This document shows, in pieces, positions 5,249 through 25,089 of a stretch of 64,000 nucleotides of DNA. The translations under genes were made by a program, and so were the position numbers. The stretch lies in the NCBI RefSeq assembly GCF_009865215.1, contig NZ_WWJX01000161.1, positions 1 through 64,000 of the forward strand, read 5' to 3'. How positions within the stretch are numbered: position 1 is the stretch's first letter; each line of letters begins with the position of its first letter. The notes beneath the pieces were generated by a model. The model was not told where the DNA came from. It ran no database searches and saw nothing but the letters and a program-made list of their open reading frames with translations. Source of the DNA: Streptomyces sp. SID3343. GTDB lineage: Bacteria > Actinomycetota > Actinomycetes > Streptomycetales > Streptomycetaceae.

Positions 5249-5283
5249 TTCCCCACCCTCGAATCCCGACCCGATCCAGGGAA

Positions 5284-5297
5284 GGGCCGAAGGGCCC
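5284..5297. promoter_or_regulatory. Candidate DevR/OsdR box (GGGCC-GAAG-GGCCC)
   Basis: This 14-bp inverted repeat begins 36 bases upstream of the flavoprotein start on the minus strand. Confidence 0.65.
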
Positions 5298-5688
5298 TGT
5301 GGTCGCGGGACGGACCCAACTCTCCAGAACAAATCCTCGGGTGGAAAGCCTCGGCGGAAACCGGTGGGGCGGATCAGGACTCGTCGGTCCTCGAAGCGGC
5401 ACAACCGTCGCCGGACCCGGATGTCGCCGTGCGAGTGCACCGCCGGCGGGCTCGGAACCGGCGTGCCCGGCGGCGCCGCATGCGCGAGCCACCGCCATAG
5501 CAGCTCGGGAAGTTCGTCTTCGGGATCGCGGCGCATGGGATCGGGGGTCGGCGTGGGGGCGGGTTCCTCCGGATGTGCGGACGGGTCCTCGCGTGATGCC
5601 GGGCCCCCTGGGGCGGCTGACGTGTGGGATGACTAAACAGGTTCGGCCGGCAACCGTCGCATGGGCTCCCGGCCGAGCCGCAGATGGG

Positions 5689-6333
5689 TCAGAGCAGCCA
5701 GCGGTTGCGTCGGACGATCGGCAGACGGGCCCACACGGCGCCCAGGCCCAGTCGGCTGCCTACGGCGATCGCGGCCAAGGCGATCAGGGATGTCGCGTAG
5801 ACGACGTGGTAGTCGGTGAACGGGTTGGTGGAGGAGGTGGCCCTGCCGGTGTCCAAGTGTTTGGCGGGCGGCCATTCGGCGATCCACATCAGCGCCATCA
5901 TGGCGGTGCCGGCCAGGGCCGCCAAGCGAATGCCGACGCCCAGGATCAAGGCGACGCCGACGCTGAGCAGGCCGAGCATGAACAGCCAGTCCGCCCATGG
6001 CTCGCCGGCCCAGCCGCGCAGCCACCCCGCCATCGGTCCGACGTGCACGTGCGACAGGAAGCCCTGGGTGGGGGAGCCGCCGTCGACCCAACCCTTGCCA
6101 CCCGCAGTGGCGTAGCCGAACCCGAAGGCCTTGTCGAGGAATGCCCACAAGAACACGAAACCCAGCACGATCCGAAGTCCCGCAATGGCGACATCGGCGC
6201 GAACCGACGCGATCGCCGAGGACGCCGTCGTCACGTCGCGCGCGGTGTTGTCGGCCGCAGGCCGGCTTGCGGGGGTCGAGCGGTTCTGCAGATGGAAGCG
6301 CGGAGTCAAACGGTGGCCGTGCGACGTCGCCAT
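5689..6333 (-). CDS. DoxX-family membrane protein
   Basis: The 214-residue protein has four hydrophobic segments: AIAGLRIVLGFVFLWAFLDKAF, the region around WADWLFMLGLLSVGVALILGVG, LAALAGTAMMALMWIAEW, and a last one near YATSLIALAAIAVG. The order and the FLDKAFG motif match the DoxX/DoxD (thiosulfate:quinone oxidoreductase-like) family. A strong GGGAGGGAA site precedes ATG 6333. Related DoxX genes in streptomycetes sit beside Usp and DevS/DevR genes. A redox or quinone-linked membrane role is inferred. A box at 6441-6454 lies 108 bases upstream. Confidence 0.85.
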   Translation of the reverse strand: MATSHGHRLTPRFHLQNRSTPASRPAADNTARDVTTASSAIASVRADVAIAGLRIVLGFVFLWAFLDKAFGFGYATAGGKGWVDGGSPTQGFLSHVHVGPMAGWLRGWAGEPWADWLFMLGLLSVGVALILGVGIRLAALAGTAMMALMWIAEWPPAKHLDTGRATSSTNPFTDYHVVYATSLIALAAIAVGSRLGLGAVWARLPIVRRNRWLL

Positions 6334-6440
6334 GTCGGTTCCCTCCCGATGGACGCCGGGCGCATCGCCCGGCGCTCGACCGCCGACGTGATTCCTGCGG
6401 TCGTGACATCAGCCTCCAGCGGGGCGGGGTCCCGGCCACA

Positions 6441-6454
6441 GGGCCGACCGGCCC
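6441..6454. promoter_or_regulatory. Candidate DevR/OsdR box (GGGCC-GACC-GGCCC)
   Basis: This 14-bp inverted repeat lies upstream of the minus-strand doxX-like gene. Confidence 0.6.
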
Positions 6455-6606
6455 GACCCGCCGGGTCCAACAGCCGGTTGCCGTCAGCCGAAAGGCGCGA
6501 CCAGGCGGAGGCACCCGTGGTGGAACCCGGTGTGCCCGGCCCGGCCCGGCCCGACCGGACGGGTGCGGTGCGAAGCTGTAGGGAGCGTGTCGTAGAGAGC
6601 GTGTCG

Positions 6607-8310
6607 TCAGGCCAGCGGGACACACCATTCCAGGATCGCGCCGCCGTTCGATCCGGGGCCGAAGGAGCAGGAGCCGCCCAGACTTTCGGCCCGTTCGCGC
6701 AGATTGCCCAAGCCGCTCTCGCGGGTCGTGGTGGCGGGTGGTCCCACACCGTCGTCGAGTATTCGCACCCGCAGTCGCTCGTCGTTCGTTTCCACGTGCG
6801 TCTCGACGCGACTCGCGTGTGCGTGCCGAGCCGCGTTCGCCAGCGCTTCGCGCAGGACCGCGATGACGTGTACGGCAATCGGGTCCGGAACCAGAGTGTC
6901 CACCAGACCGTCCACACGCAGCATCGGGGCGAAGCCGAGCATCTCGGTGGCCGCGTCCATTTCGCGCAGGCAGCGTGCACGCAGCCCGGTGCCGGTGTCA
7001 CGGCCCTGGGCCTTGAGCGAAAAGATCGTCGAGCGGATGACCTTGATCGTGTCATCCAACGCGTCGACCGCGGACTCGACACGCTCCAGCGCCTCCGGGT
7101 GGTCGATGAAGCGGGTCGCGCTCTGCAGGGTCATGCCGGTGGCGAACAGGCGCTGGATGGCCAGGTCGTGCAAGTCACGCGCGATCCGGTCGCGGTCCTG
7201 GAAGACGGTCAGCAACTCCGCGTCGCGACGCCGTTCGGCGATCTCCAGTGCCAGCGCCGCATGGTCGGCGAAGCCGGTGATCATGCGCACCACGGCCTCC
7301 GCCAGTTGTGGACGATCCACTCGGTTGGCGATCTGGAGCACACCTCGGACCCGCTCGGGCGTGCCCAACGGCACCAGGAACGCCGATCCGAGATCGAGCC
7401 CCACCGCATGGGCGACCACTGCGCCCGGGTCATGGCTGAGTTCCGTGCTGGTGATCGTCTCGCCCGAGCTGAACACCTTGCCCATCAACGTGCTTTCGCC
7501 CGTCAGGACCAACCCTCGGATCCGCTCCGCGAACGGGCCCTCGGCGGCTTCGACAACCAGGTCCCCGGTCCCGGGGACCGGGACCGCCAGAGTGACCAGG
7601 TCGGCATCGGCCATGTCGCGGATGGTCGCGGTGAAGGATTGCAGGACGTCCGTGGGGGCGTCGCCGGAGAGCAGACTGCGGGTCAGTTCCGAACTGGCGG
7701 CCAACCAGCGCTCGCGTCGGCGCACGTCGTCGAACAGGCGCGCGTTGTCGATGGCGACGCCGGCCGCGGCCGCGAGTGTGCGCAACACCGCCTCGTCGTC
7801 CTCGTCGAAGTCCACACCGCCGCGTTTCTCGGTGAGGTAGAGGTTGCCGAACACCGTGTTACGGATGCGGATCGGGACACCCATGAAGGTGTTCATCGGC
7901 GGGTGGCCGTCCGGAAAGCCGAACGAATCCTCGTGTTGCGAGAGGTCGTGCAGGCGCAGCGGGTGGGGGTCGCGGATGATCAGCCCCAGGATGCCGCGTC
8001 CGGTGGGGTACGGTCCGATCCGCCGGCTCGTCTCGGGGTCCAAGCCCACCGTCAGGAACCGCGCGAGTTGTTCCTCGTCGCCGATCACGCCGAGGGCGCC
8101 GTACTCGGCGTCGACGAGCGTCGCCGCCGACTCGACGATCCGGCGGAGCACGGTCTCCAAGTCCAGGTCGCTGCCCACCGACAGTACGGCCTCCAGTAAC
8201 CCGCTCACTCGATCCCGGGTCGCGCGGACCACCTCGACATGGGCCTGGAGCTCGTCCAGCAACTCGTCCAGGCGCATACGTGGCAGCGCGGGTTGCTGGT
8301 CCGACGTCAC
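6607..8310 (-). CDS. devS: DevS/DosT/OsdK-like GAF-GAF sensor histidine kinase
   Basis: The product has two GAF domains (about 55-195 and 220-360), a HisKA_3 H-box RDRIARDLHDLAIQRLF with phospho-His near residue 381, and a HATPase_c domain with NAARHAHAS, LDDGVG and GLGNLRERAESLGG. GAF-A contains GHPPMNTFMGVP; the His (about 136) aligns with the proximal heme ligand His149 of M. tuberculosis DevS, so a heme-based oxygen/redox sensor is likely. The frame is open further upstream, but GTG 8310 follows GGAGGGG at good spacing and matches family length (567 residues). It is oriented away from its partner regulator at 9139. Confidence 0.92.
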   Translation of the reverse strand: MTSDQQPALPRMRLDELLDELQAHVEVVRATRDRVSGLLEAVLSVGSDLDLETVLRRIVESAATLVDAEYGALGVIGDEEQLARFLTVGLDPETSRRIGPYPTGRGILGLIIRDPHPLRLHDLSQHEDSFGFPDGHPPMNTFMGVPIRIRNTVFGNLYLTEKRGGVDFDEDDEAVLRTLAAAAGVAIDNARLFDDVRRRERWLAASSELTRSLLSGDAPTDVLQSFTATIRDMADADLVTLAVPVPGTGDLVVEAAEGPFAERIRGLVLTGESTLMGKVFSSGETITSTELSHDPGAVVAHAVGLDLGSAFLVPLGTPERVRGVLQIANRVDRPQLAEAVVRMITGFADHAALALEIAERRRDAELLTVFQDRDRIARDLHDLAIQRLFATGMTLQSATRFIDHPEALERVESAVDALDDTIKVIRSTIFSLKAQGRDTGTGLRARCLREMDAATEMLGFAPMLRVDGLVDTLVPDPIAVHVIAVLREALANAARHAHASRVETHVETNDERLRVRILDDGVGPPATTTRESGLGNLRERAESLGGSCSFGPGSNGGAILEWCVPLA

Positions 8311-8448
8311 AGCCCCTCCAACGGTTCGGTGACGCGTCGGGACGGTCCCGAGTGCCATCGTGTCAAACCCGGTCGCCCGCGTCTGCACTCGGCCTCGGGC
8401 GCACCTCGCGGTTCGGTTCGACCGGTGCCGGCTGCGGATCCGATCGAG

Positions 8449-8462
8449 GAGCCGAACGGCCC
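8449..8462. promoter_or_regulatory. Candidate DevR/OsdR box, one mismatch (GAGCC-GAAC-GGCCC)
   Basis: It lies in the divergent region between the kinase and the second usp gene, 34 bp centre-to-centre from the perfect box at 8483-8496. Confidence 0.5.
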
Positions 8463-8482
8463 TGGGGAGAGGGCCGAGAGCG

Positions 8483-8496
8483 GGGCCGGAAGGCCC
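8483..8496. promoter_or_regulatory. Candidate DevR/OsdR box (GGGCC-GGAA-GGCCC)
   Basis: It ends 32 bases before the proposed GTG start of the second usp gene, the same geometry as the box before the flavoprotein gene. Confidence 0.6.
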
Positions 8497-8528
8497 TGTG
8501 CGGCGCCACCGAGGCAGAGCAGGCCGAG

Positions 8529-9035
8529 GTGCACGTCCCAGCGGAGGAAACGACGGACCCGCGCCCGCAGCACTGCGTCCCGCCGTGCGTCGTGGTCGGG
8601 ATCGACGCCGACCCCTTGCTCAACCACGGACCCGTTCTGTGGGCCGCACACGAGGCGGCTCTGCGGGGAGCGGCAGTGCGCCTGGTGCACGCCTGGGAAC
8701 CGGCCCCCGCCCACCGCGCGCACGACGCGCCGATGCGCGACCTCGTCGACCCGATCGCGCGGCGCGGGCGGGTCCGCGAACCGATGGACACGGCCGAACA
8801 GGCCGCGCACCACGCGCGTTTCGGACCGACGGTGATTCGGCAGCCGAGCGAGGGGCCCGCCGTCGCGGTCCTGCTCGACGCCGCGAACGAGGCATCGCTG
8901 CTCGTCCTGGGCAGTCGCTCGCGCCATGCGGACCGGCGCCCGCTCGGACCCGTCACCCGCGACTGCCTGCGTTGCGCACGGTGTCCCGTCGTCACCGTCG
9001 GCGCCGCGCCCGTCGTGGTATCCGCTGATCGGTGA
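8529..9035 (+). CDS. Universal stress protein, UspA family (second copy)
   Basis: The 168-residue Usp domain opens with PCVVVGIDADPLLNHGPVLWAAHEAALRGAAVRLVHAWEP-type sequence (seen in sections) and ends with LLVLGSRSRHADRRPLGPVTRDCLRCARCPVVTVGA. The C-terminal loop again only partly keeps the ATP-binding glycines. The start is the weakest part of this call: no strong ribosome site is seen, and GTG 8529 was chosen because it leaves the 8483-8496 box in promoter position; the frame stays open to 8280. It is divergent from devS and just upstream of devR. Confidence 0.75.
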   Translation: MHVPAEETTDPRPQHCVPPCVVVGIDADPLLNHGPVLWAAHEAALRGAAVRLVHAWEPAPAHRAHDAPMRDLVDPIARRGRVREPMDTAEQAAHHARFGPTVIRQPSEGPAVAVLLDAANEASLLVLGSRSRHADRRPLGPVTRDCLRCARCPVVTVGAAPVVVSADR

Positions 9036-9052
9036 CAGTTGCGGTTCCGGTG

Positions 9053-9066
9053 GGGCGGTACCGCCC
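9053..9066. promoter_or_regulatory. Perfect 14-bp palindrome GGGCGGTACCGCCC
   Basis: It lies between the second usp gene and the response regulator, 73 bases before the GTG start. It has the same length and symmetry as the GGGCC-N4-GGCCC boxes but different arms, so it could be an autoregulatory variant or an unrelated operator. Confidence 0.4.
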
Positions 9067-9138
9067 ACTACGGTGAGAGGTGAGGACGCGTTTTTCGGTG
9101 CCCGACAACGGAGTCCGACCGACCTCCCGAGGAGGGCC

Positions 9139-9801
9139 GTGTCCACATCACCCATTCGCGTGTTCCTGTTGGACGATCACGAGGTGGTCCGCAGGGGCCT
9201 GGCGGATCTGCTCGGCGGCGAACCCGACATCGAGATCGTGGGCGAATCGGGCTCCGCCGTCGAGGCCGCGCGACGCATTCCGGCGCTGCGACCGGACGTT
9301 GCCATACTGGACGGCCGACTGCCGGACGGCACCGGCATCGACGTGTGCCGTGAGGTCCGCTCTCGGTTCCCGGAGATCAACGCGCTGATCCTGACGTCGT
9401 ACGACGACGAGGACGCGTTGTTCGCGGCGATCATGGCGGGTGCCGCCGGCTACGTGCTCAAGCAGATCCGCGGGCAGGACCTGATCGCGGCCGTGCGCGC
9501 GGTGGCCGCCGGGCAGTCGCTGCTGGACCCGGCGGTGACCACACGCGTCCTGGACCGAGTCCGCAACGGCCCTGCGGCCGAGCCGGGCCCGGCCGGGCTC
9601 AGCGAGCGCGAGAAGCAGGTCCTGGGGCACATCGCCCAGGGCCAGACGAACCGGGAGATCGCCGAGAGCCTGGGTCTGGCGGAGAAGACCGTCAAGAACT
9701 ACGTCTCGGCGGTGCTGAACAAGCTCGGTCTCGAACGCCGGGTCCAGGCAGCCGTGTACGTGACCCAACTACACCAAGGCAACGAGCGACACCGGAGCTG
9801 A
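9139..9801 (+). CDS. devR: DevR/DosR/OsdR-like NarL-family response regulator
   Basis: The receiver domain (residues 5-120) has the acidic pair LDDH, the phospho-acceptor Asp near residue 58 (AILDGRLPDG) and the LTSYDDEDALFAAIMAGAAGYVLKQ switch region. The C-terminal LuxR-type HTH (about 153-215) reads LSEREKQVLGHIAQGQTNREIA and AEKTVKNYVSAVLNKLG, very close to M. tuberculosis DevR. GTG 9139 follows GGAGGGCC. It lies 100 bases downstream of the usp gene and near devS, so a two-component pair activating hypoxia or dormancy genes is well supported by family and context. Confidence 0.93.
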   Translation: MSTSPIRVFLLDDHEVVRRGLADLLGGEPDIEIVGESGSAVEAARRIPALRPDVAILDGRLPDGTGIDVCREVRSRFPEINALILTSYDDEDALFAAIMAGAAGYVLKQIRGQDLIAAVRAVAAGQSLLDPAVTTRVLDRVRNGPAAEPGPAGLSEREKQVLGHIAQGQTNREIAESLGLAEKTVKNYVSAVLNKLGLERRVQAAVYVTQLHQGNERHRS

Positions 9802-9979
9802 CCACCCGGGTATGCCGGAGGCCGCCCTCGGACACGATGCCGAGCACGCGACTCGTAGGCCACCACCGGTAGCGCACTGACCCGCCACGTCTTTGGCAGG
9901 CCTGCGATGTCCCGGTAATCGAGGTCGGATTCGGCAGTGACGACGTTCTCGGTGTGTCGCCGATGTCGCACGCGAGTCA

Positions 9980-9993
9980 GGGCCGCACTACCC
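9980..9993. promoter_or_regulatory. Possible weak second DevR/OsdR site (GGGCC-GCAC-TACCC)
   Basis: One perfect half-site with a degenerate partner, 22 bp centre-to-centre from the perfect box at 10002-10015. Confidence 0.3.
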
Positions 9994-10001
9994 CGAGCAC
10001 A

Positions 10002-10015
10002 GGGCCGTTCGGCCC
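10002..10015. promoter_or_regulatory. Candidate DevR/OsdR box (GGGCC-GTTC-GGCCC)
   Basis: A perfect inverted repeat ending 46 bases before the small gene that overlaps ackA. Confidence 0.65.
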
Positions 10016-10061
10016 GGGCGCGCGAGCCCGGGATGCGGTGTGCTGGGAACCGGATCGACGC

Positions 10062-10409
10062 ATGAACCACCAGGAGGCGGCCGCCGTGTTCTCGTTCGCT
10101 CACCATCGCACGGATCTCGCGTCTCCGCGCGGCCGGTTCGCAGGCCGCCGCGCGAAGTCGTGCACGCTGTACCTGCGCTCGATGAACATCGGACCGGCAC
10201 CGGGCACGGTAACCTCGTCGCCGGCGCCGATGTCTCTCGTCCTGGCAGACCTCGAATGGGGTAAGCGCGAAACCCACTTGCGCGCCGGACGACCGCCGTG
10301 GTGGCAGCCGATCGGCCGCCGGTGGGAACAGGTGAGTGACGCCGAACTCGCCGCCGACCGCGAGCGGCTGCGGACTCCGGCCGACATGGTGGTCCGCGAT
10401 GCGTGCTGA
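10062..10409 (+). CDS. Small hypothetical protein coupled to ackA
   Basis: I do not recognise this 115-residue product. It is polar, has no signal or membrane segment, and ends in a Trp/Arg/Glu-rich part (PPWWQPIGRRWEQVSDAELAADRERLR) that looks like a structured helix-containing tail. It begins 47 bases after a perfect box and its stop overlaps the ackA start by 11 bases, which suggests translational coupling. The ribosome site is poor. It may be a real small member of the hypoxia operon or only the ackA leader. Confidence 0.4.
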   Translation: MNHQEAAAVFSFAHHRTDLASPRGRFAGRRAKSCTLYLRSMNIGPAPGTVTSSPAPMSLVLADLEWGKRETHLRAGRPPWWQPIGRRWEQVSDAELAADRERLRTPADMVVRDAC

Positions 10410-11530
10410 ACCGGAGTACGGTCCGAACCCGGCCAACCCCGGACGGGTCCTGGTGGTCAACGCGGGCTCGTCGAGCCTGAAACTGTCGGTGGTCGAGCCG
10501 GACGACTCGATCGCCCGCACGACGGACTTGCGCTGCGTCGAAACGATGCCCTCCGAGGCGATCGCCGACTTCGTACGCTCGGCGGATTCCATTCGTGCCG
10601 TCGGGCATCGGATCGTGCATGGTGGCCCCGACTTCACCGGCCCGGTCCGGCTTGATCCCAGGGTGTACGCGCGGATCGTCGCCCTACGCTCGTTGGCGCC
10701 CCTGCACCAGGACCGCGCGATCGCCGGCATCGACGCGGTCCGCGAGTTGTGCCCTGAACTTCCTTCCGTCGCCTGCTTCGACACCGCCTTCCACCACACG
10801 CTTTTCGGCCGAGGCGAGCACGTATGCGCTCCCCCAGGAGTGGCGCGCCAGGTGGGGTCTGCGTCGCTACGGCTTCCATGGCCTGTCGCACGCCTACGCC
10901 TCGGCGCGGGCGAGCGAACTCACCGACCTCGATGCGACATCGGCGCGCGTGGTCAGTTGCCACCTCGGCGCCGGAGCGTCGCTGGCCGCGGTCCGAGGCG
11001 GCGTATCCGTCGACACCACCATGGGCTTCACCCCTACCGAGGGTCTGGTGATGGCCACCCGCGCGGGCGACCTGGACCCGGGAATGCTCGTATGGCTGCA
11101 ACGAAACGGCGTCGAACTCGACCGACTCGAGAACGTGTTGGAACACGAGGCCGGACTGAGCGCGCTGGCCGGACACGGCGGTGACATGCGCGCGATCCGG
11201 GTCGACGCCGACGCGGGCGACCTCCGCGCCCGACTGGCCCGCGCCATCTATGCCTACCGGGTGCGTACCGGGATCGCGGCCATGGCCGCCGCGATGGGCG
11301 GCATGGACATCCTGGTGTTCACCGGCGGCGTGGGCGAACACGACGACGGCGTACGGGCCCAGGCGGTTGCCGAACTGGGGTTCTTGGGCGTGGGCTTGGA
11401 CCCGGGCGCCAACGCGCGAGCGGTGGGCGACGCCGAGATCGGAGCGTCGGACGCACCGGTGCGAACCGTCGTGGTCACCGCCCGCGAGGACGTGTGGATC
11501 GCGCGCGAGACCCGCGGGGTGTCGGGCTGA
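10399..11530 (+). pseudogene. ackA: Acetate kinase with an apparent +1 frameshift near 10802-10805
   Basis: The first frame (from ATG 10399) gives VLVVNAGSSSLKLSVVEP, VGHRIVHGG and VACFDTAFHHT, the ATP and substrate motifs of acetate kinase. The second frame resumes with YALPQEWRARWGLRRYGFHG, SCHLGAGASLAAV and FTGGVGEHD through to the normal C-terminus at 11530. The break is in CTTTTC; removing one T joins the frames without loss (HHTLSAEASTYALP). The restored protein is about 376 residues, a little under the usual 400. AckA makes ATP from acetyl phosphate, the product of the phosphoketolase encoded convergently at 14006. A homopolymer sequencing error is at least as likely as a real mutation. 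Confidence 0.85.
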
Positions 11531-11642
11531 TCGTCCGCCCGCCACCGGGATGCGCCCCGGACGTGTCCGGCGCGACGCTTCGTCGGCGGCTCGGCATGCG
11601 AGCCCGCGGATACCGGCGGCCGTCTTCACGGTCCCTGGGCGC

Positions 11643-14006
11643 TCAGTGCGTACTCGGGGAGTCCGACGACCAGGTCCAGTCCCGAACCTCGGGCACGTCC
11701 TCACCGTGTTCAAGGATCCATCCGCGATGCCTGGCCCGTGCGTCGAGCATGGTCTGACGCACGGTGGCGGCGCGTGCCCTCAGACCGGGGACGCGGTCGA
11801 TGACGTCGATCACGCGCTGGTAGCGGTCCATGTCGTTGAGCACGACCATGTCGAACGGCGTGGTGGTGGTGCCGTTCTCCTTGTACCCGCGTACGTGCAA
11901 CTCGTCGTGGTTGTGGCGACGATAGGCGAGCCGGTGGATCAGCCACGGATAGCCGTGGTACGCGAAGATCACCGGCACGTCGGTGCCGAACAGCGCGTCG
12001 TAATCCGCGTCGGGCATGCCGTGCGGGTGCTCGCTCTCGGGCAGCAGGCGCATCAGGTCGACCACGTTGACCACGCGTACTCGCAGATCCGGCAGGTGCC
12101 GACGGATCAGGTCGACGGCGGCGAGCGTCTCCAGGGTCGGCACGTCACCGGCGCAGGCCAAAACCACGTCGGGGTCGCCGTCGTCGTTGGAGGCCCACTC
12201 CCAGATACCGGCGCCGCGCGCGCAGTGCAACATCGCCTCGTCCATCGTCAGCCAGTTCGGGCCGGGGGTCTTGCCGGCGACGATCACGTTGACCAGGCCG
12301 CGGCTGCGCAGTACATGGTCGCCCACCGACAGCAGGGTGTTGGTGTCCGGTGGCAGGTACACCCGGACGACTTCCGGGCGTTTGTTGATCACATGGTCGA
12401 CGAACCCGGGATCCTGGTGTGAGAAGCCGTTCTGGTCCTGGCGCCACACGTGAGAGGTGAGCAGGTAGTTGAGCGACGCGATCGGCGGACGCCAGCCGAT
12501 CTCCCGGGAGGCGTGCAGCCACTTGGCATGCTGGTTGAACATCGACGACACGATGTGCGTGAACGCCTCGTAGCACGAGAACACGCCGTGACGTCCCGTC
12601 AGGAGGTAGCCCTCCAGCATCCCCTGGCAGGTGTGCTCGGACAGGATCTCCACGACCCGCCCGTCCGGAGCCAGATGCGCGTCGAGGTCGGTGATCGGCT
12701 CCTGCCAGGCCTTGGCCGTCGCGCCGTAGACCGCGCCGAGCCGATTCGACTCGGTCTCGTCCGGCCCGAACAAACGAAAATCGCGTCGAGCCGCGGTCCG
12801 GGCGAACACCTCGCACAGATACTCGCCGAGCGCCCGGGTGGGCTCCGACGAGGACACGCCGGGCTCGGTCACCTTGACCGCGAAGACGTGCGGGTCCGGC
12901 AGCGGTAGATCCCGCAGCACGGTACCGCCGTTGGCCTCGGGGACCGCGCCCAGGCGGGCGCGGCCGGTGGGCACGTTGGCAAGCACGGCCGCGGTCGGCC
13001 GGCCGTCCCGGTCGAAGAGCTCGTCCGGGCGGTAGGAACGCATCCACGTCTCGAGGGCTGCCAAGTGCTCCGGGTTCTCGCGCACGCCGGCCAGCGGGAC
13101 CTGGTGCGCGCGCCACGTACCCTCGACCGGGAGGGCGTCCACCGTGCGCGGGCCGGTCCAGCCCTTCGGGGTGCGCAGCACGATCATCGGCCACCGCGGG
13201 CGTCCCCCAGAGGTGGCCTTGAGGTCGGTGATCTCGTCCAGTGCCTCGTCCAACGCGGCGGCGAACGCGGCGTGCACGCACGTGGGTTCGTCGCCCTCGA
13301 CATGGATGGGGCGCCAGCCGTAGCCGGTCAGCAGCGCGTCCAGTTCCTCGCGTGGCATCCGGGCGAGCAGTGTCGGGTTGGCGATCTTCCAGCCGTTCAG
13401 GTGCAGGATCGGCAACACCGTGCCGTCGGTTCGCGGGCTGAGGAACTTGGTGCCGTGCCAGGACGCGGCCAGCGGGCCGGTCTCGGCTTCGCCGTCACCG
13501 ATCACGCAGGCCACGACCAGGTCGGGATTGTCGAAGGCCGCCCCGAACGCGTGCGAGAGGCTGTACCCGAGCTCGCCCCCCTCGTGGATGGAGCCGGGCA
13601 CGCCTGGTGCGATATGGCTGGGCACACCACCCGGGTAGGAGAACTGGCGGAACAGCGCGGCCATGCCGGCCTCGTCCCGCGAGACGTTCGGGTAGCGCTC
13701 GCTGTAGGTGCCGTCCAGCCAGGAACCGGCAAGGGCGGCGGGGCCACCGTGCCCGGGGCCCGTGACGTGCATCGCGTGCGTGCCGCGTTCGCGGATCACC
13801 CGGTTCAGGTGCGCGTAGATCAGGTTCAGGCCGGGGGAGGTACCCCAGTGCCCAAGCAGGCGCGGCTTGATGTGGTCGGGCCGCAGCGGTTCGACCAGAA
13901 GTGGGTTGCCTTTCAGATAGATCTGGCCCACCGCGAGATAATTCGCGGCCCGCCACCAAGCGTCGACCATCGTCAGATCGGGTCCTGCGGGAATCGCCAT
14001 CGTCAT
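11643..14006 (-). CDS. xfp: Xylulose-5-phosphate/fructose-6-phosphate phosphoketolase
   Basis: The 787-residue protein matches phosphoketolase along its length: [18 protein letters not shown] and [10 protein letters not shown] in the N-terminal thiamine diphosphate domain, [13 protein letters not shown] (cofactor/Mg site), [11 protein letters not shown], then [11 protein letters not shown] and [14 protein letters not shown] in the middle domain and [21 protein letters not shown] at the C-terminus. It cleaves xylulose 5-phosphate or fructose 6-phosphate to acetyl phosphate plus an aldose phosphate. ATG 14006 follows AGAGGAAG; ATG 14000 is an alternative. A box at 14074-14087 lies 68 bases upstream. 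With AckA it forms an ATP-yielding fermentative bypass suited to low oxygen. Confidence 0.95.
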
Positions 14007-14303: not shown

Positions 14304-16859
14304 CTACACCCCGATGTGTACGAACGGCACCCAGCCGCTCGGGTGGTGTGGGCGTGCCGCGCGTTCCTTCAGGGTGGCCTCGTGTAGCAGGCGCGCGCTG
14401 TTGTCGGGTCTGATTCGTCCGTCGCGGGCGAGGGAGCGGTAAAGGGTCTCGGCCACGCGGGCGGAGGCGCGATCGGAGATCGTCGTCTGCGTGCCGATCA
14501 CGTGCTGGTATCCCCCATATTGCAGAGCCGAGGTCAGCGAGACCACTTCGTCGGGCATCAGGGCGTGCGGCCGGGCCGTCGTACAGGCCGCGAGGAAGGC
14601 GAACTCCGGTCGGCCGGTGCGGATCCCGACGAGGTCGGCCACGGTCAGCGTGCGGTCCTGGAGGACCAGCCCCGTTCGCGACGGGTGATCGAGGTCCTGG
14701 ACTCCGTGGCAGTCGAAGTGGACCCAGGGGTGCGTTCCCAGGCTCCCGGTGACCGATTGCCAGGTGGCGTCCGGGCCTTCGAGCAGCGACAGGCGGTGGG
14801 GCGGAATCAGATACCTGAGCTGGTCGCGGGTCCTGGCCGCCGCCGGGATGGCCACGTCTCCAGGCCGGTCGGAGACCGACACGAGCAGGAACCGACGGAC
14901 GTCCTGCGCACCGGTACGTCGATTGGCACCCCGCAGATCTCGGGCCGCCCGGGCCCAGACGAGGACACGGAGTGTGGGTGTATACGAGGAGACGACGCGC
15001 GCGGGCAGCGAGGCAGTGGGGTTGCCCGGCCCGAACCACGGAGCGGTGGCCGCGTGCAGTGGCAGCGCGCCCAGAACTCCCGAAGGGCACCACCACACCC
15101 GTGGTAGTCGACCCTCTTCTTCCGAGGGCGCGAGTACCCGAAGCACGGGAGAGGCGAGGGTGCGCCAGAGCCAGAGGATGGTGTCGTCGACGGCGCGTTC
15201 ACGGGTGGGCCCCGGGCCACCGTTGAGGGCCCGTAGGTAGCGATCGGCCCGCTTCCCGGCCGATTCGGCATCGAGGTCGGGAAGTTCGACCACGTCCGGT
15301 ACGTCGCGATCGCTCCGTACGATCAGCGCGTAGCAGCCGAAGCGACTGACGACGACCACGACGACCGGGCCCTCGCTCGCGGCGGGCCGGAGGTCGTGCT
15401 TGTAGATCGGCACGCGCAGGGTCGCAGGGAGTTGCGTCTTCGCCGTACGGGCAGCGATGTGCCAGCGCAGTCGTTGCCAGGTACGACCGGCGATTTCCCA
15501 TGCGTCGGCTCCCGCATCGAGGAAAGACCATCGACGGGCCTGGATCATATCCGGATTCGTGGGTGTTCGAGCGTGTCTGTGTTCGCTCGCGACCACGCGT
15601 TCGATGCGCCTGGCGAGGCGGGGCTGCACCACGTACGTCTCCGCCCTGATGGAGCGATGCAGCAGCGCGTCCCACTGGAGCGCGCGTCCGGCCTCGAAGA
15701 GTTCCAAGGCTCGCACGGAGTGGCCGGCCGCGATGGCGCAGGCGGCCGCGTCGGCGGCGAGCCCGGTGCCCTCGGTCAACAGCTTTGCGTGGGTGGCCGC
15801 GTCGGTGATGTCTGCGGGATCGACGGCAAAGTGATGTCCCGCGACGGCGCGGGGCAGGAGCCTCACGGCTGCCGCGAGGTCGCGGTATCCGGCGGCGGGC
15901 CCCGCGGCGCTCGCCATCGCGTACCCGGACGAGCGCAGGGCCTGGACACGCGCCGGGACGGGCAGCGAGGTCATGGCGCCCAGTTGGCCTTGGACCGCGG
16001 CGATACCGGCCGCCGGTGGTGACGGCTCGACGGACGTTCCCACGGAGTCGACATCCGGCTCCGGGCCTCGGCCCTCCAGCAGTTGCCGTAACGGCCCCGG
16101 CGGAGGGCGGCGTGGTGCCCGGGGGCGCGACCGGGTTTTCGCAACGTCGTCTTTCTTCTTCAGGGCGTCGAGGAGGGCGACCAGTCGGGCGGCCTCGGCG
16201 GAACGGTCGCCGAGGCGCTGCGACGCCTCGTGGCTCAGCGTACGGATGGCCCGGTTCAGGTCGTCCGGATTGCCGTCGCGATCGAAGCGGCTCAGCAGGG
16301 CGACGGCGAGATTGTTGGCACCGATTACCCGTCGCCGCCGTTGGGGCACGGTCACCCGCCGCCGTGCCTGGGAGAGTTCGCGTACCGACGCGTCCAGTTC
16401 GCCCCGGTCGCCGGTGGCCAGGTAGCGGGTGTAATGGCGAAGACCACGGCGGGTACGGACGACGAAACCCGGCTCGTGTCGCCCCCGCCAACTGTCGAGG
16501 AAGTACGCGATCACGAATCGGGGATAGGGCCCCGGCAACGGCGGAACGAACCCCAACGACGTGCGCTTTTCGTATTGGGGACAGGGAGAGCGACGCCGAT
16601 ATCGCAGCCGGAGGAAATGGGCCGGCAGACCGATCAGAACCCGGAGCGCCCCCATGAGCCGGGCAATCCCGGCGGATCGACGACGGACCCGCCACCCGCG
16701 ACCTACCCCACGTCGGTTCGCGGCGCGCTGCTTCGCCAACTCGGCGCGTTGTTCGGGACCCATATTCGCGACGTGGTCGTACCGGACGTGCGGGCGGACC
16801 GCCCGACGACCTCGTTCCGGATCGCCGCCGTCGGGTCCCCGGTATTGAACGAACGACAT
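14304..16859 (-). CDS. CHAT-domain caspase-like protease with TPR-like region (CATRA-type conflict system effector)
   Basis: The 851-residue protein has an N-terminal basic region, a short TPR-like helical region (about 130-220, with NNLAVALLSRFDRDGNPDDLNRAI), a helical linker, and a C-terminal CHAT domain. The caspase-type dyad is visible: His near 718 in WVHFDCHG and Cys near 759 in FAFLAACTTAR. CHAT proteases cleave partner proteins after a trigger and often drive abortive-infection-type defence. ATG 16859 follows AAGGAG 6 bases upstream; a TTG just before is an alternative. It lies 19 bases behind the CATRA-like membrane protein in one operon. Confidence 0.88.
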   Translation of the reverse strand: MSFVQYRGPDGGDPERGRRAVRPHVRYDHVANMGPEQRAELAKQRAANRRGVGRGWRVRRRSAGIARLMGALRVLIGLPAHFLRLRYRRRSPCPQYEKRTSLGFVPPLPGPYPRFVIAYFLDSWRGRHEPGFVVRTRRGLRHYTRYLATGDRGELDASVRELSQARRRVTVPQRRRRVIGANNLAVALLSRFDRDGNPDDLNRAIRTLSHEASQRLGDRSAEAARLVALLDALKKKDDVAKTRSRPRAPRRPPPGPLRQLLEGRGPEPDVDSVGTSVEPSPPAAGIAAVQGQLGAMTSLPVPARVQALRSSGYAMASAAGPAAGYRDLAAAVRLLPRAVAGHHFAVDPADITDAATHAKLLTEGTGLAADAAACAIAAGHSVRALELFEAGRALQWDALLHRSIRAETYVVQPRLARRIERVVASEHRHARTPTNPDMIQARRWSFLDAGADAWEIAGRTWQRLRWHIAARTAKTQLPATLRVPIYKHDLRPAASEGPVVVVVVSRFGCYALIVRSDRDVPDVVELPDLDAESAGKRADRYLRALNGGPGPTRERAVDDTILWLWRTLASPVLRVLAPSEEEGRLPRVWWCPSGVLGALPLHAATAPWFGPGNPTASLPARVVSSYTPTLRVLVWARAARDLRGANRRTGAQDVRRFLLVSVSDRPGDVAIPAAARTRDQLRYLIPPHRLSLLEGPDATWQSVTGSLGTHPWVHFDCHGVQDLDHPSRTGLVLQDRTLTVADLVGIRTGRPEFAFLAACTTARPHALMPDEVVSLTSALQYGGYQHVIGTQTTISDRASARVAETLYRSLARDGRIRPDNSARLLHEATLKERAARPHHPSGWVPFVHIGV

Positions 16860-16878
16860 CAACTTCTCCTTCCGAGCT

Positions 16879-18405
16879 TCATCGGCGGTGCCGTGCGCGA
16901 GCGAGTGCCGCAGCCACGGCCGTGCCGACGAGGAAGCCGAACCCCGCGCAGGAGAGCGTCGTACTCGGCGGGGGAGTCGAGCCCTGTACCGCGGCGATCG
17001 TCACCCAGCCGAGCGAGGCCGTGACCATCCCGATCGAGGCCTGCAACACGAACAGTGACCATCGGCGGTCCGGCAGCAGGACGCGCACGACGGCGAGTGA
17101 GGCCGACAGCGCGAAGGCACCGAGGGCCGTGACGACGGCGGGTTTGACGGCTGCCGGGACCGGAACGGTGTATTCGAGGGACTGCACAGCCGCCAGACAC
17201 ATCAACACCGCCCCCACCACGCCGGCCAGCCCCGCGTTGAGGCTCTCCTGACGGCGTTGCCGACCGCGTTGCGACAGTTGGTCCAGCACGGTCCCGATCC
17301 GCTCACACCGTTGGAGCGTGTGTTCGAGGTAGATCGCGTCATCGTCGAGTTGCCGACCGAACCACTCGGCCAACGCGCGATCATCGGCGAAGGGTCCGAC
17401 GGGGCGGGCGACACCGGAAGCCGGAGGCGGCGCCGACGACCCCTCCTCCGACGGATCCAGGACCCGGAGGTTGTCCGCGACGATCTCCACGGTGCGACGC
17501 ATCTCCCGCAGGCGCGTCGACCGGTCGATCAGGGCCAGGACCCGCGCCTGGAGGTCGTCCAAGAGTCGCGCCGCCGATGTCCCCGGGATGCGTTCGGAGG
17601 GCTGGTGCCGGGCCGGTGGCACCACCCTCAGGAGCTCTCGCAGGCACGCGTCGGTCTCCTGCCGCAGCCGCCACAGGCCCGGATGGGCGGCGCGCCACAC
17701 TCGCAGTTGGTGGCGCAGACGCCCAGCATGGAGCAAGTAGTGCGCCAGGGGCGGAAGTTCCCGTACCGATCCCGCGACGACCCAGGCCAGCGCGCTCAGT
17801 TCGGCGTCGCCGTCCGGGCCTGCGATCACCGCGAGACGGCGGACGGTGCGGTCGTCGCCCGGCCCGCAGCTCTCCCACACCGCGACGCGGCCGCCCAGCA
17901 ACGCCCCCGGCCCCGAGCGCACGCCCGTCCCCGAGCCGTCCGTGGGAACGGAGTCCTGCACCGACTCGGGGCACGCCCGGACGGGCGTGGCGGGATCGGT
18001 CAGGCGGGCCAGGAACAAACGCGCCGAACCGAGTACGCCCGACGGAGCGGCGCCGGCCGCCCTTTCGACCCGTGACCACCGGGCGTCCAATTCCGACCAG
18101 GTCACGCCCTCGACGGTGTCCGGTTCCAACACCGCCGACAGGCAGAACGTGTCGTACTCGCGGCGCAGGACGACCTGGTGCATTCCTCCCGGCCGGGACC
18201 GGGCGGCCGACAGGCCCGGTGGCGCCTGCGCCCAAGCCGGACCGAGGTCGGCGTTCATGCCGGGTACGGGCTCGGTCATCCCGAGTACGTCGCCGCACGC
18301 GCGCCACATGCGGTGCAGGTAGGCCAGGTCGGCGACCGAATCCTCGCCGTCGGCGGCGACAAACACGTGAACGACCAGAGCTCTAGCGCCGAGTCGTGCC
18401 GACAT
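16879..18405 (-). CDS. CATRA system CASPASE/TPR-associated membrane protein
   Basis: The 508-residue product has a soluble N-terminal domain (about 1-330) with ARALVVHVFVAA, YLHRMWRACGDVLGM and HQVVLRREYDTFCLSAVLEP segments, a helical middle with ARLLDDLQARVLALIDRSTRLREM, and a C-terminal block of about four membrane helices (395-505). This layout and the gene neighbourhood match the actinobacterial CATRA (caspase and TPR repeat-associated) conflict-system protein. I infer that it senses a signal and holds the CHAT protease at the membrane. ATG 18405 follows GAGGG and overlaps the small upstream gene by 23 bases. Confidence 0.75.
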   Translation of the reverse strand: MSARLGARALVVHVFVAADGEDSVADLAYLHRMWRACGDVLGMTEPVPGMNADLGPAWAQAPPGLSAARSRPGGMHQVVLRREYDTFCLSAVLEPDTVEGVTWSELDARWSRVERAAGAAPSGVLGSARLFLARLTDPATPVRACPESVQDSVPTDGSGTGVRSGPGALLGGRVAVWESCGPGDDRTVRRLAVIAGPDGDAELSALAWVVAGSVRELPPLAHYLLHAGRLRHQLRVWRAAHPGLWRLRQETDACLRELLRVVPPARHQPSERIPGTSAARLLDDLQARVLALIDRSTRLREMRRTVEIVADNLRVLDPSEEGSSAPPPASGVARPVGPFADDRALAEWFGRQLDDDAIYLEHTLQRCERIGTVLDQLSQRGRQRRQESLNAGLAGVVGAVLMCLAAVQSLEYTVPVPAAVKPAVVTALGAFALSASLAVVRVLLPDRRWSLFVLQASIGMVTASLGWVTIAAVQGSTPPPSTTLSCAGFGFLVGTAVAAALARARHRR

Positions 18406-20557: not shown

Positions 20558-21076
20558 CCGGCAGACCTGCCCGACCCGGCACATACCGGGCCGGGCAGGT
20601 CGACTGACGTAATGGGCGGACCGCCGGCATCACGGCACGGGCATTTCCCGGCCTGCGTGCGGCGCTTGTACGCCGGCGCTTCGTCAGTCCTTGAGCGCCG
20701 CTCGGTAGGGGCCGAACAGGCCCGATACTCCGCATCGATCGCGATGGTCGACACCGTTTGGTCGTCGTTGTCGGCACGTAGTCGAGTCGGTCGACCGACC
20801 TGACCCCGGCCCCGAACGGTTCCTGCCGGTCAACGGCCTCGTGTGTCCGCTGTCGTCCATCGTGTCAGGGAGCACACGTCGGCGAGCTGCGCACCGGCAA
20901 TTGCCTTGAGACGAGACGGGCTTGAGACGAGACGGGCGAGCGATCCGGCCGGGATCACGGGGCTTGGACGTCACGGGGTCGACGTCTCAATGGTCTAGTC
21001 GGCTCCGGCAAGCGCCGACCAGACAAGCGAACAGAACCGCAAAGACCCTGCGAGGCGGGTTCTCATGATGTGACCT
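20558..21076. other. Intergenic region with small repeats
   Basis: No gene is supported. It contains an inverted repeat GGGCC-GAACA-GGCCC at 20709-20723, similar to the DevR-type boxes but with a 5-base spacer, and a tandem 16-bp duplication at 20905-20936. Confidence 0.5.
20905..20936. repeat. Tandem 16-bp direct repeat, two copies
   Basis: CTTGAGACGAGACGGG occurs twice back to back with no mismatches in non-coding DNA. Confidence 0.8.
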
Positions 21077-22365
21077 CTACGGCTTGGCCGACGAGGTTAT
21101 CGCCGATCCGGCCGGGGCCGCAGAGTCCGGAACCCCCGCGTAGTCGGGCAGCTCGACGCCGTTGATCGCGCGTCCGACCAGCTCGGTGAACCATTCACCG
21201 GCGAAATTGGGGCTCGGCTCGGCGTCCGGGCCGGGAACGTCGCGGCTGCGGGCGTTCAATCGGCCGATCTCCTGGTTGGCCTCGACGAACGAGCGCATCC
21301 GCGCCTCGTAGCGGGCGAACCCCGCGTCGGGGTCCCACCCGGCAGCGGCCAGCTCCCCGGCCAGCAGGTAGGCACCGACCAGGGCCAGCCCGGTGCCCTG
21401 TCCGGACATCGGCGACGAGCTGAACGCCGCGTCCCCGAGCAAACCCACCGCCCACTCGACCAGCGGTCCATCACCACCTGGGCGACCTGGTCGAGGTAGA
21501 AGTCCGGGGTGTCGTCCAGGTGCGCGAGGATGTCCGGGGTCAACCAGCCCAGGCCCGCCATCCGCTCCCGCAGCAGGACCTTCTGGGCCGCGACGTCACG
21601 GTGGTCGACGTCGAAGTCGGCCGAGGCGAAGTAGAACATGGCCATCGCCCGGGTGGCGTCCCGGATGGGCCGCAGGAGGGCGGAGCGCCCGGACTCCCGA
21701 TCCTGGTACTCGAGCAGCCAACGGTCCAACCCGAACTCGTTGGGCACACTGTAGAAGGCCAACACGTGCCCGAGGTGGCGGAGAAACCGCTCATGCGGCC
21801 CGAAGACCATCGCTCGCAGCTCCGAGTGCGGCCCGTCTGCCCCGACCACCAAGTCGAAGCGCCGCCGGTCGCCGCCCGCGAAGACCACGTCGACTCCGTC
21901 CGCGTCCTGGACGAGGTCGGCGATTCGGTCGTCGAAGACGTACTCGACGCCGTCGCGGGTGTCCTCGTAGAGCACCCGGGACAGGTCCCCGCGCAGGATC
22001 TCGATGTCCGCGATGAACCCGTCGCCCCCGTCGTCGTCGGCACGGAAGGTCTCCAGCACCTGCCCGTCCGCGTCCACGGTGTGCGCACCCGCGGTGTCGG
22101 TACACGCCGCGCGCACCGCCGCGGCCAACCCCATGCGCTCGATGGCCTCCCTGGCGACCCCGCGCGCGTCCACCGCCTGCCCGCCGGGACGCAGCTCGGG
22201 AGCCCGCTCCACCACGGTCACCTCAGCCCCCCGCCTGCGCAGCCAGTGGGCCAGCGCGGGTCCCGCGATGCTCGCCCCCGCCACCAACACCCTGGGACCG
22301 CTCACCCGCGTCCCCTGCCCGCCCGTCCGGATCGCGTGCCCCTGGCCGGAGTCGTCGACACTCAT
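21077..22365 (-). pseudogene. FAD-dependent monooxygenase with an apparent frameshift near 21444-21455
   Basis: The first frame holds the Rossmann motif VLVAGASIAGPALAHWL, the Arg-rich RPGGQAVDARG segment and the second FAD motif DLVVGADGPHSELR, typical of PHBH-fold aromatic hydroxylases such as tetracycline/anthraquinone monooxygenases. The third FAD motif, GLLGDAAFSSSPMSGQG, is only in another frame, which continues to the stop at 21077. Adding one G in the G-rich GGGCGGTGGG (minus-strand sense) restores SSGRVGLLGDAA. The ATG at 22365 follows GGAGG. The substrate is unknown. A G-run sequencing error is a serious alternative to true inactivation. Confidence 0.82.
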
Positions 22366-23098
22366 CACTGCCTCCATGTGCTTCCTCCCGCGCTGGAACG
22401 TTCCCGGCACAGGCCCATCGCTGTCGGTGTGTCCAGCCGTATCGACCACCGATCCGCACAAAACTCATCGGTCGCGGCAGACATCGACGAGGAATGCCGA
22501 CTCCGACCAGCCTCGTATGAACCCAGACTGGTGAAAACCAGGCGAACCAGCCTGCCGGCCAGGCCGCCGCCTGAGACTTCGCCGAATCTGCGCGCAACAC
22601 AGGTGGCCCCGTCGAGCGCCGCCGACCTGGGGCTGGGCTGAACGCGGCACGAAGCAGAGTGGTTGTCACCGACGCCGAGTGTGCAACAGATGAATACGAA
22701 CCACCGCCGTCCCACCGTACGGACGGCACGGGCGGCTGGTACACGGCCCGATGTCGTGGGTGGCCGCGACGCATGCGCGCACTCGTGAAGAACCGCAAAG
22801 TCGGTCTTGGTGCCGGTGTCGGTGCCTCGTCGACGTCATGAATCGTCCCGGGGTGGGTCGGCGGGTTCCGCGGAAGCCGTGGGTGGTTCGACGAGAGTCA
22901 CTGCCTGGGCGAAGAGAGCGGGAACCGCCCGGTGTGATGGTGTGAGGCATGCCGTAGATGGAGTAATGGGCGATGGGGCTGCTTGGCGGCGCCAGGCTGT
23001 GGTCGTTGATCACGGACCACCGCCGGGCCTGCTCTCCCCTGTGCCGGGAGGCCCGACTCGGCGGCCCGGGTGCCCCCCCGACACACGAAGGACACGTC
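22366..23098. other. Intergenic region before the RhoGDI-like gene
   Basis: More than 700 bases lie between the monooxygenase and the RhoGDI-like gene. Open frames here are short, have poor codon bias and no recognisable motifs. I see no RNA gene. A promoter for the downstream gene must lie here, but I cannot place it. Confidence 0.5.
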
Positions 23099-23557
23099 AT
23101 GCCGGAGACCGACCCGCAGCCCTTGAGCCTGCGCACGCTGACCCTGATCGTCGAGGGCATGCCCTCCACCACGTGGTGCCTCGACGACGAAGGGGTGCTT
23201 ACCGACTTGAAGGCGAAGCCGTTCGTGCTCGCCGAGGGCTCGCACTACAAGCTCGTGATCGGCTTCGTGGTCGACCACGAGAACGTGTTCGGCCTCAGAT
23301 ACGTGAAGCACGTCTACCGCAAGGGGGTCAGGGTCGCCAAGGACGATCGGATGCTGGGTTCCTTCGGTCCGACGAAGGAGACACACGAAGTGACCATTCC
23401 TCAGCGTGGCTGGGAGGAGACCCCCGGCGGGACCTTGAACCGTGGTCCCTACACCGCCAAGGTGACCTTGACGGACGACGGCGGTGTGACGCACGGGGCG
23501 TTCGAGTACGGCTTCGAGATCAGGACGAGTCGGCCTGCCACCGAACCGATCAGCTGA
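23099..23557 (+). CDS. RhoGDI-like (Rho GDP-dissociation inhibitor fold) protein
   Basis: The 152-residue protein aligns by eye with the C-terminal immunoglobulin-like domain of eukaryotic RhoGDI. KPFVLAEGSHYKLVIGFVV matches the FVLKEG-Y-I-F-V strand, YRKGVRVAKDDRMLGSFGP matches YRKGVKIDK--YMVGSYGP, and TPGGTLNRGPYTAKVTLTDD matches APKGMLARGSY---F-DDD, followed by an FEYGFEI strand. The N-terminal arm that contacts the GTPase switch regions in eukaryotes is absent. ATG 23099 follows GAAGGA. No small GTPase or prenyltransferase is nearby, so Rho regulation is not implied; binding a lipid or prenyl group in the beta-sandwich is the reasonable inference. Confidence 0.85.
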   Translation: MPETDPQPLSLRTLTLIVEGMPSTTWCLDDEGVLTDLKAKPFVLAEGSHYKLVIGFVVDHENVFGLRYVKHVYRKGVRVAKDDRMLGSFGPTKETHEVTIPQRGWEETPGGTLNRGPYTAKVTLTDDGGVTHGAFEYGFEIRTSRPATEPIS

Positions 23558-23926
23558 GGAACCTCCCCCATCGCCACCGCAGGGCCGCCGTACCTCAGAG
23601 ACGATTCGCTATCCATCGGCGATTTCGCGCCCTTCGGGGTAACTCCTGGCGAACAACGAAGTTTCGAACACGCCACCCCGATGGGTCTCGGCATATCAGC
23701 CTATGCAAGTCCACCGGCAACCACCTTCGCCTACATCACCGACAACCGATGCCTGAACAGCGAACTGTGGCCTGCCGCATGTGTGTTCTCGCGATGAGGT
23801 AGGTCAGGCAGTCGACAAGTTCCCTTGCAGCCGCCCCAGTTCGAGATGCTGATCGGGACGGGGATGCGCAAGGGTGAGGTGTGGGTCTGCATTTCGGCGG
23901 ACGTGCATCTGGACGGTGCCTGGTCT
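23558..23926. other. Intergenic stretch with an integrase relic
   Basis: Directly after the RhoGDI-like stop, the same frame stays open for about 72 codons but has no start and only modest codon bias. The decayed integrase fragment at 23840-23923 fills the end. Nothing else was seen. Confidence 0.45.
23840..23923 (+). pseudogene. Second integrase fragment (catalytic Arg motif), decayed
   Basis: FEMLIGTGMRKGEV...ADVHLDGAW matches the Arg-I region of phage-type tyrosine recombinases (LIGTGMRKGEALALHWADVHLD). The central residues are scrambled in a way explained by two compensating indels. It differs from the fragment at 18853, so at least two integrases left traces here. Confidence 0.6.
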
Positions 23927-24106
23927 TCAGCAGGGCTCAGGGGAACTCACGGGACGCATCACAACAGTTCCACCCCCGCGGATCACCTGCCCGTCGTAGG
24001 GTCGGCTGCCGGCGCTGTGGCGAGTGATGGTGGACGTCTCGAAGAGGAACTGTGTCAGCAGGTCTTCGTGGCGATCTTCGATGTCCGGATCGCCGACACG
24101 CGTCAT
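23927..24106 (-). CDS. Small unknown protein coupled to the oxidoreductase
   Basis: A 59-codon frame begins inside the ATGA that ends the oxidoreductase gene (ATG at 24104-24106), a classic coupling arrangement. The product starts MTRVGDPDIEDRHEDLL and ends with SRPYDGQVIRGGGTVVMRP; I do not recognise it. It could be a short real gene or chance. Confidence 0.35.
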   Translation of the reverse strand: MTRVGDPDIEDRHEDLLTQFLFETSTITRHSAGSRPYDGQVIRGGGTVVMRPVSSPEPC

Positions 24107-25089
24107 CGGAACACCTGCAGGACTGTCTTCCCGCGAGCCCCGGTCTCCGCATGGATGTGGGCTTCGGCGGCGGCATCAAGAGGGAAGACCTTGTCGAGGT
24201 GAACGGCCAGTGCGCCGGTCCCCACCAGCCGAGCGAGCTCACCGAGGCCGTGTCCGTCGGGTTCGACCAGGGGTTCGGGCGCGACGTGGACGCCGGCCGC
24301 TGCGGCTGCTTCGGTGAAATTTGCCGGCCGGCCGGGAGCTACGCCCAGGAAGAGGCCGCCGGGCCTCAGGACGGTGAGGGAGCGGGTGGCGGTGTCCGGC
24401 TGGGCGATACCGACGAGGTCGAGCACGACGTCGATGTTCCCGGTGGCCTCCTCGAAGGGCGTGGCCCGGTAGTCGATGACCTCGTCGGCCCCCAAGGCGC
24501 GCAGCCAGTCGTGCTTGTCGGCGGAGGCGGTGGCAATGACGTGCGCTCCCAGATGCTTGGCGATCTGGACGGCGAGGTGGCCGACGCCTCCGCCCGCAGC
24601 GTGGATCAGCACGCGCTCGCCGCCGTCGAGCCGGGCGATGTCGGTCAGGCCCTGCCAGGCCGTCAGCCCGGCCAGGGGTAGCGCTGCGGCGTGTTCGTGG
24701 TCGATGTTCGCGGGCTTGAGGGCGAACTGCCGGGAGGGCGCGGTGACGTACTGCGCGTATGCGCCGGCGGGGCGGGGCAGCCAGAGCAGACCAAAGACCT
24801 CGTCGCCGGGCGCGTAGAGGAACTCACCTGGCCCGGTCGCCACCACCGTGCCCGAAACGTCCCAACCCAAGATGTGCGGCCCCGCTCCGAGGGCTGCCCT
24901 GGCGGGGGTGGGAAGTCCGGACCGGGTTCGCAGGTCCAGCGGGTTGATCCCGGCAGCATGCACCCGCACCAGAATCTCCGTGGGCAGGGGAGCCGGGCGC
25001 GGCACCATCATCGGCACCAGAACCTCCGGGCCGCCGAAGTCGGTGAAAACCACGGCCCGCATCGCGGAACCGGCGTCCTGCTCAGCCAT
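24103..25089 (-). CDS. Zinc-independent NADP-dependent quinone oxidoreductase-like MDR protein
   Basis: The 328-residue protein shows the medium-chain reductase pattern: MRAVVFTDFGGPEVL at the start, GWDVSGTVVATGPG in the catalytic domain, and the nucleotide-binding HAAGGGVGHLAVQIAKHLGAHVIATASADKHDWL with GADEVIDYR. The structural-zinc cysteines of alcohol dehydrogenases are absent, which fits quinone oxidoreductase/enoyl reductase-like members. ATG 25089 follows GGAAGAGG. It is divergent from an HxlR repressor, a common pair in which the repressor senses reactive quinones or aldehydes. Confidence 0.9.
   Translation of the reverse strand: MAEQDAGSAMRAVVFTDFGGPEVLVPMMVPRPAPLPTEILVRVHAAGINPLDLRTRSGLPTPARAALGAGPHILGWDVSGTVVATGPGEFLYAPGDEVFGLLWLPRPAGAYAQYVTAPSRQFALKPANIDHEHAAALPLAGLTAWQGLTDIARLDGGERVLIHAAGGGVGHLAVQIAKHLGAHVIATASADKHDWLRALGADEVIDYRATPFEEATGNIDVVLDLVGIAQPDTATRSLTVLRPGGLFLGVAPGRPANFTEAAAAAGVHVAPEPLVEPDGHGLGELARLVGTGALAVHLDKVFPLDAAAEAHIHAETGARGKTVLQVFR

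Follow-up and report, generated by a model that had tools for sequence, protein, structure and literature searches.

RhoGDI is a eukaryotic regulator of Rho GTPases, inhibiting the release of GDP and escorting lipid-tagged Rho proteins off membranes. A small gene in the soil actinomycete Streptomyces sp. SID3343, lying within the 64,000 nucleotides of DNA analysed here (the window), is on balance probably what remains of a RhoGDI acquired from a eukaryote by a streptomycete lineage: its prenyl-binding half, kept as a binder of a hydrophobic chain. In outline, a whole RhoGDI would have been acquired; its Rho-binding arm, useless where there are no prenylated Rho proteins, would have been lost in the window strain; and the remaining beta-sandwich would have been retained, a small soluble protein that binds a polyprenyl, a quinone or another lipid. 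The domain itself is already known. The variant described here is a eukaryote-type copy, together with an entire RhoGDI, in bacteria that have no detectable Rho system. A search of the open-access literature found no paper on a bacterial RhoGDI, although bacterial members of PF02115 may already have been noted in databases.

The open reading frame is intact, running from an ATG through 152 codons with no internal stop, and a codon-usage gene caller trained on streptomycete loci independently calls it as coding (Table 1). Its product matches the Rho_GDI profile (PF02115) over positions 60-191 of 193 with E 8.1e-35 and 120.6 bits (cut-off 26.5). The protein is about 41% identical to mammalian RhoGDI1, human RhoGDI1 is paired with it by phmmer at E 4.2e-24, and a sequence search of the PDB returned RhoGDI1 and RhoGDI2 chains as the sole credible matches (E 4e-24 to 3e-21). 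No NCBIfam model matches it or its Rho_GDI relatives. The first-pass annotation had read three RhoGDI blocks in order along the translation (FVLAEG, then the block at residues 73-91, then TPGGTLNRGPY with TDD downstream) and had argued against a chance motif; the profile search it proposed is significant, chance is excluded, and the gene is a true RhoGDI homologue. With a GC content of 64% and a GC3 of 88% its composition is host-like, and the gene is therefore at home in its genome.

Table 1. Features of the RhoGDI-like gene and its left-hand boundary, in window coordinates
Feature	Position	Strand	Remarks
CDS of a RhoGDI geranylgeranyl-binding (Ig-like, by homology) domain without N-terminal arm	23099..23557	+	152 aa; PF02115, phmmer and codon usage
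Shine-Dalgarno-like GAAGGA	23087..23092	+	6 nt ahead of the ATG; direct reading of the sequence
Block FVLAEG (residues 42-47)	23222..23239	+	Aligns with human FVLKEG
Block YRKGVRVAKDDRMLGSFGP (residues 73-91)	23315..23371	+	Aligns with human YRKGVKIDKTDYMVGSYGP
Three-residue insertion RGW (residues 103-105)	23405..23413	+	HGW in the G1318 protein; missing from the four eukaryotic sequences aligned
Block TPGGTLNRGPY (residues 108-118), TDD downstream	23420..23452	+	Aligns with human APKGMLARGSY
C-terminal pocket strand AFEYGFEI (residues about 135-142)	23501..23524	+	Tyr/Phe/Ile where RhoGDI1 has Trp194/Leu196/Ile198; residue table
Breakpoint, where homology to G002, a genome of the same genus, stops (95% identity from 21068 onward)	22506		RhoGDI segment lies beyond

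Mammalian RhoGDI1 and RhoGDI2 (PF02115; PDB 1CC0, 1DOA and 1DS6) have the same domain over residues 11-142 of the window protein, sharing with it the blocks FVLxEG, HxYRKGV, KxDxMxGSxGP, PxGxLxRGxY and DD and an aromatic/aliphatic pocket strand. Unlike them, the window protein has neither the arm nor the acidic N-terminus, carries the RGW insertion, replaces Asp140 with Ala and Asp185 with Gly (RhoGDI1 numbering), has lost the final Trp202, and comes from a cell in which no Rho partner was found. Of the acidic residues with which RhoGDI1 grips the Rho tail (Asp140, Glu163 and Glu164), two of three are kept, as Ala/Glu/Glu. Absence of the GTPase-inhibiting arm, already remarked on in the first-pass annotation, is confirmed by a profile match that begins at position 60 of 193 and by a tblastn search upstream of the gene that found no arm remnant. 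The protein thus belongs to the RhoGDI domain family, yet is not a complete RhoGDI, the switch-binding arm (the Asp45 and Leu55/Leu56 region) being absent. In RhoGDI, Asp45 touches switch I of Rho proteins, and RhoGDI1 deprived of residues 1-58 fails to bind Rac (PMC8622166). Loss of the very arm that RhoGDI1 needs for Rac binding counts against an extracellular role for the window protein, in which it would target Rho GTPases belonging to nearby eukaryotes, for instance amoebae or fungi; such a role would suit a sequence of eukaryote type with a relative that retains the arm and its Asp45, but the sequence shows no evident signal peptide, no adjacent secretion genes were recognised, and we consider it very improbable.

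The pocket residues of RhoGDI1 have been named as Trp194, Leu196 and Ile198 (PMC9313812), and in an alignment with RhoGDI1 the pocket-strand residues of the window protein are conserved in kind. Because its C-terminal strand carries Tyr, Phe and Ile at these three places, we infer that the hydrophobic pocket survives, now with another hydrophobic ligand. An Ig-like beta-sandwich fold is implied by homology; a single-sequence AlphaFold model is all-beta, but has a pLDDT of 46.9, and a Foldseek search with that model gave no match at E<=0.001, only noise.

A counterpart of the window protein lies in a Streptomyces-type genome, that is, one from genus g9, by far the largest genus of Streptomycetaceae among the genomes sampled. 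Here, in G1318 (G1318:C1:8035224-8035778, in L064), a full-length RhoGDI of 184 aa is encoded 43 kb from the end of a single-contig chromosome of 8,078,361 bases. It matches PF02115 at 150.9 bits over profile positions 12-192, aligns with residues 21 to 202 of RhoGDI1 (E 2.5e-27), and retains the human arm residues Ser34, Asp45, Leu48, Tyr51, Glu53 and Leu55. The two bacterial proteins are 54% identical over 136 aa and have in common a three-residue insertion ending in GW; they differ in that the window protein begins at the start of the sandwich, whereas the G1318 protein extends through the arm. A phosphoketolase gene lies within 10 kb of the RhoGDI gene in both, accompanied in G1318, over the same distance, by genes for a ferritin-like (Dps-type) protein and DJ-1/PfpI. 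A third eukaryote-like copy, in G620 (L006), is arm-less and scores 119 bits against PF02115.

Tree reconstruction places these three proteins with eukaryotes. A branch of length 1.2 with 100/100 support parts the eukaryotic sequences, the window protein and the G1318 and G620 proteins from 31 divergent bacterial rows. Eukaryotic sampling was thin, comprising human GDI1 and GDI2 (checked against the PDB) and presumed GDI sequences of yeast and Arabidopsis, which score 209 and 290 bits against PF02115; the same split without the yeast and Arabidopsis rows still receives 100/100. The window and G1318 proteins pair with support of 96/93, and the G620 protein stands apart, a single clade of all three eukaryote-like bacterial proteins not being rejected (AU p 0.44). 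Capture from a eukaryote, raised in the first-pass annotation as one of two options, emerges as the best account, given this tree, the full-length armed relative and the patchy distribution described below. The reverse history, in which eukaryotes received a domain native to streptomycetes, with the divergent, stress-linked family as its bacterial root and the window protein as the least changed member of that family, seems to us quite unlikely. A diverse bacterial family does exist (the 31 divergent rows), the tree is unrooted, and a branch with support of 84/73 can have every bacterial row on one side; against this, the domain was seen in only one bacterial family among the genomes sampled, and the G1318 protein bears a Rho-binding arm, sensible only in the presence of Rho GTPases.

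Eukaryotic contamination of the assembly is scarcely credible as the source of the gene, even though the assembly is fragmented (1645 contigs) and its reported contamination is 6.69%. Host-like codon composition (GC3 0.88) and the copy on the single-contig chromosome of G1318 speak against it, and actinobacterial neighbours share the contig of the window gene.

The first-pass annotation noted no Rho-like GTPase nearby, and this extends genome-wide: across four genomes, the Ras profile PF00071 matches one protein per genome, in an open frame of 665 to 1063 aa that by its size is taken as initiation factor IF2, and no protein prenyltransferase alpha (PF01239) was found in four of the genomes examined. 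In those four genomes neither profile yields a prenylated Rho GTPase for the domain to partner. With PF01239 missing and PF00071 confined to IF2-sized proteins, a Rho-escort role inside these cells is unlikely, as judged from a GTPase search that covers PF00071 members. Should it have been kept without a Rho GTPase, the prenyl-binding domain would have a use of its own.

The principal rival to a retained hydrophobic-chain binder is that the window gene is a decaying passenger, a RhoGDI that after its acquisition was stripped of its arm and is functionless in the window strain, and much of the genomic setting suits such a reading. The gene occurs in one of four genomes of its genus, being the single PF02115 match in the 11 Mb genome of the window strain and without a match in the three other genomes of the host genus. 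Its neighbourhood is mosaic: a FAD monooxygenase gene to its left is 95% and 89% identical in two same-genus genomes, the homology stops at 22506 and 22333, respectively, and RhoGDI was not found beyond these ends in either genome. The 'accessory stretch' of the first-pass annotation is borne out by the end of homology at 22506, unlike its 'two integrase relics', since two frames flanking the gene (22659-22838 and 23825-24199) have no Pfam hit at E<=0.1. With its immediate neighbours both on the opposite strand, the window gene is not in an operon, nor was a conserved operon partner found. Between the window and G1318 genes dN is 0.35 and dS 0.52, the latter depressed by GC3 bias, and the resulting dN/dS of about 0.67 gives no strong sign of purifying selection. 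Yet the frame is intact, codon usage is host-like, the ribosome-binding site is good, and the conserved blocks have been retained despite an overall identity of only 54% to the G1318 protein. We regard decay as rather unlikely, and a retained binder as the better reading of a gene in this condition.

Pfam places CHAT and CATRA proteins, an AraC regulator and the FAD monooxygenase to the left of the gene, and a zinc dehydrogenase and a HxlR regulator to its right. The FAD monooxygenase segment (21068-22506) has quite different neighbours in a same-genus genome, as expected of a mobile or mosaic module. A stretch at about 23844-23911, 'GTGMRKGEV...ADVHLD', looks integrase-like by eye only.

Distribution of the domain is patchy well beyond the host genus. 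PF02115 matches 4 of 395 genomes across the class, all of them Streptomycetaceae, 11 of 298 across the family and 25 of 393 across genus g9. A broader, 12-sequence profile run on 396 genomes of the phylum, with ten candidates per genome scored, matched only the genome of the window. Nothing was found on plasmids, phages or viral contigs with the window protein, on plasmids with three relatives, on viral contigs with an alignment and the G1318 protein, or in a genome-contig collection. The relatives recovered are of two sorts, the eukaryote-like pair in G620 and G1318 and a divergent Streptomyces family of Rho_GDI-like proteins (L002-L005, L007-L030 and L065-L067) that scores 22 to 80 bits against PF02115. 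Its members share the domain with the window protein at 23-35% identity, but are set apart from it by the signature RxGGPYExxLPPERLP and by the 100/100 branch.

Genomic context links the divergent family with the general stress response. Across 29 neighbourhoods of 14-20 kb, a STAS protein is present in 17, an ANTAR-SpoIIE phosphatase in 16, and an anti-sigma-type HATPase_c_2 protein and a SigB-type sigma-70 r2-r4 factor in 15 each, with representatives of the STAS/anti-sigma/sigma module confirmed by Pfam; genes for DJ-1/PfpI, CsbD, Usp and hemerythrin also adjoin. About half of the divergent genes lie within 20 kb of such a module. Streptomyces coelicolor has nine SigB homologues (PMC8346170), and at nine per genome one would be expected by chance in about 2% of 20-kb stretches, a rough yardstick given that many of the loci are related. 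SigB-type promoters precede 15 of 32 Rho_GDI genes, compared with 100 of 483 (Fisher p 0.0015, with two patterns tried and related genes non-independent); none was found ahead of the window, G1318 or G620 genes. For the window gene a stress role is only a lead, drawn from these divergent neighbourhoods and from an island of stress genes 9 kb away.

It is possible, if doubtful, that a RhoGDI captured from eukaryotes was converted in streptomycetes to a new purpose, its prenyl pocket becoming a carrier or sensor, under stress regulation, for a bacterial isoprenoid or lipid. The series would then run from the whole RhoGDI of G1318, through the arm-less eukaryote-type copies of the window and G620, to the divergent SigB-linked family, and makes testable which ligand the pocket holds once the GTPase is gone. 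If true, the general stress response of Streptomyces would gain an undescribed component, and the transfer of signalling proteins from eukaryote to bacterium a clear added case. A precedent, for transfer only, is glxA of Streptomyces coelicolor, which encodes a galactose oxidase-like protein unrelated to RhoGDI, is thought to be fungal in origin and is needed under osmotic stress (PMC3543389). A further lead, to salt tolerance, came from a fungal RhoGDI cDNA among randomly sequenced clones (PMC4212599, Table 2); it was dropped as evidence because the cDNA was not seen among the tolerance-conferring clones in the portion of Table 3 of that paper examined.

Elsewhere in the window, the island at 2990-13970 is of a stress or dormancy type, with two universal stress proteins, a GAF histidine kinase, a LuxR-type regulator, acetate kinase and phosphoketolase. 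Parts of it are conserved in Embleya records, its phosphoketolase being 91% identical to the counterpart in Embleya sp. NBC_00888. From this identity, and because the nearest genomes all fall in one family of Actinomycetes, we take the host to be Embleya-like and a member of the Streptomycetaceae. Only the C-terminal half of the acetate kinase is called (10949-11530, profile 203-392), the front being perhaps frameshifted or missed by the caller. Between this island and the RhoGDI gene, on the reverse strand at 14304-18366, the CHAT-domain protein adjoins a CATRA-N/CATRA-C (caspase and TPR-associated) protein, in what by its Pfam domains is likely a bacterial conflict system.
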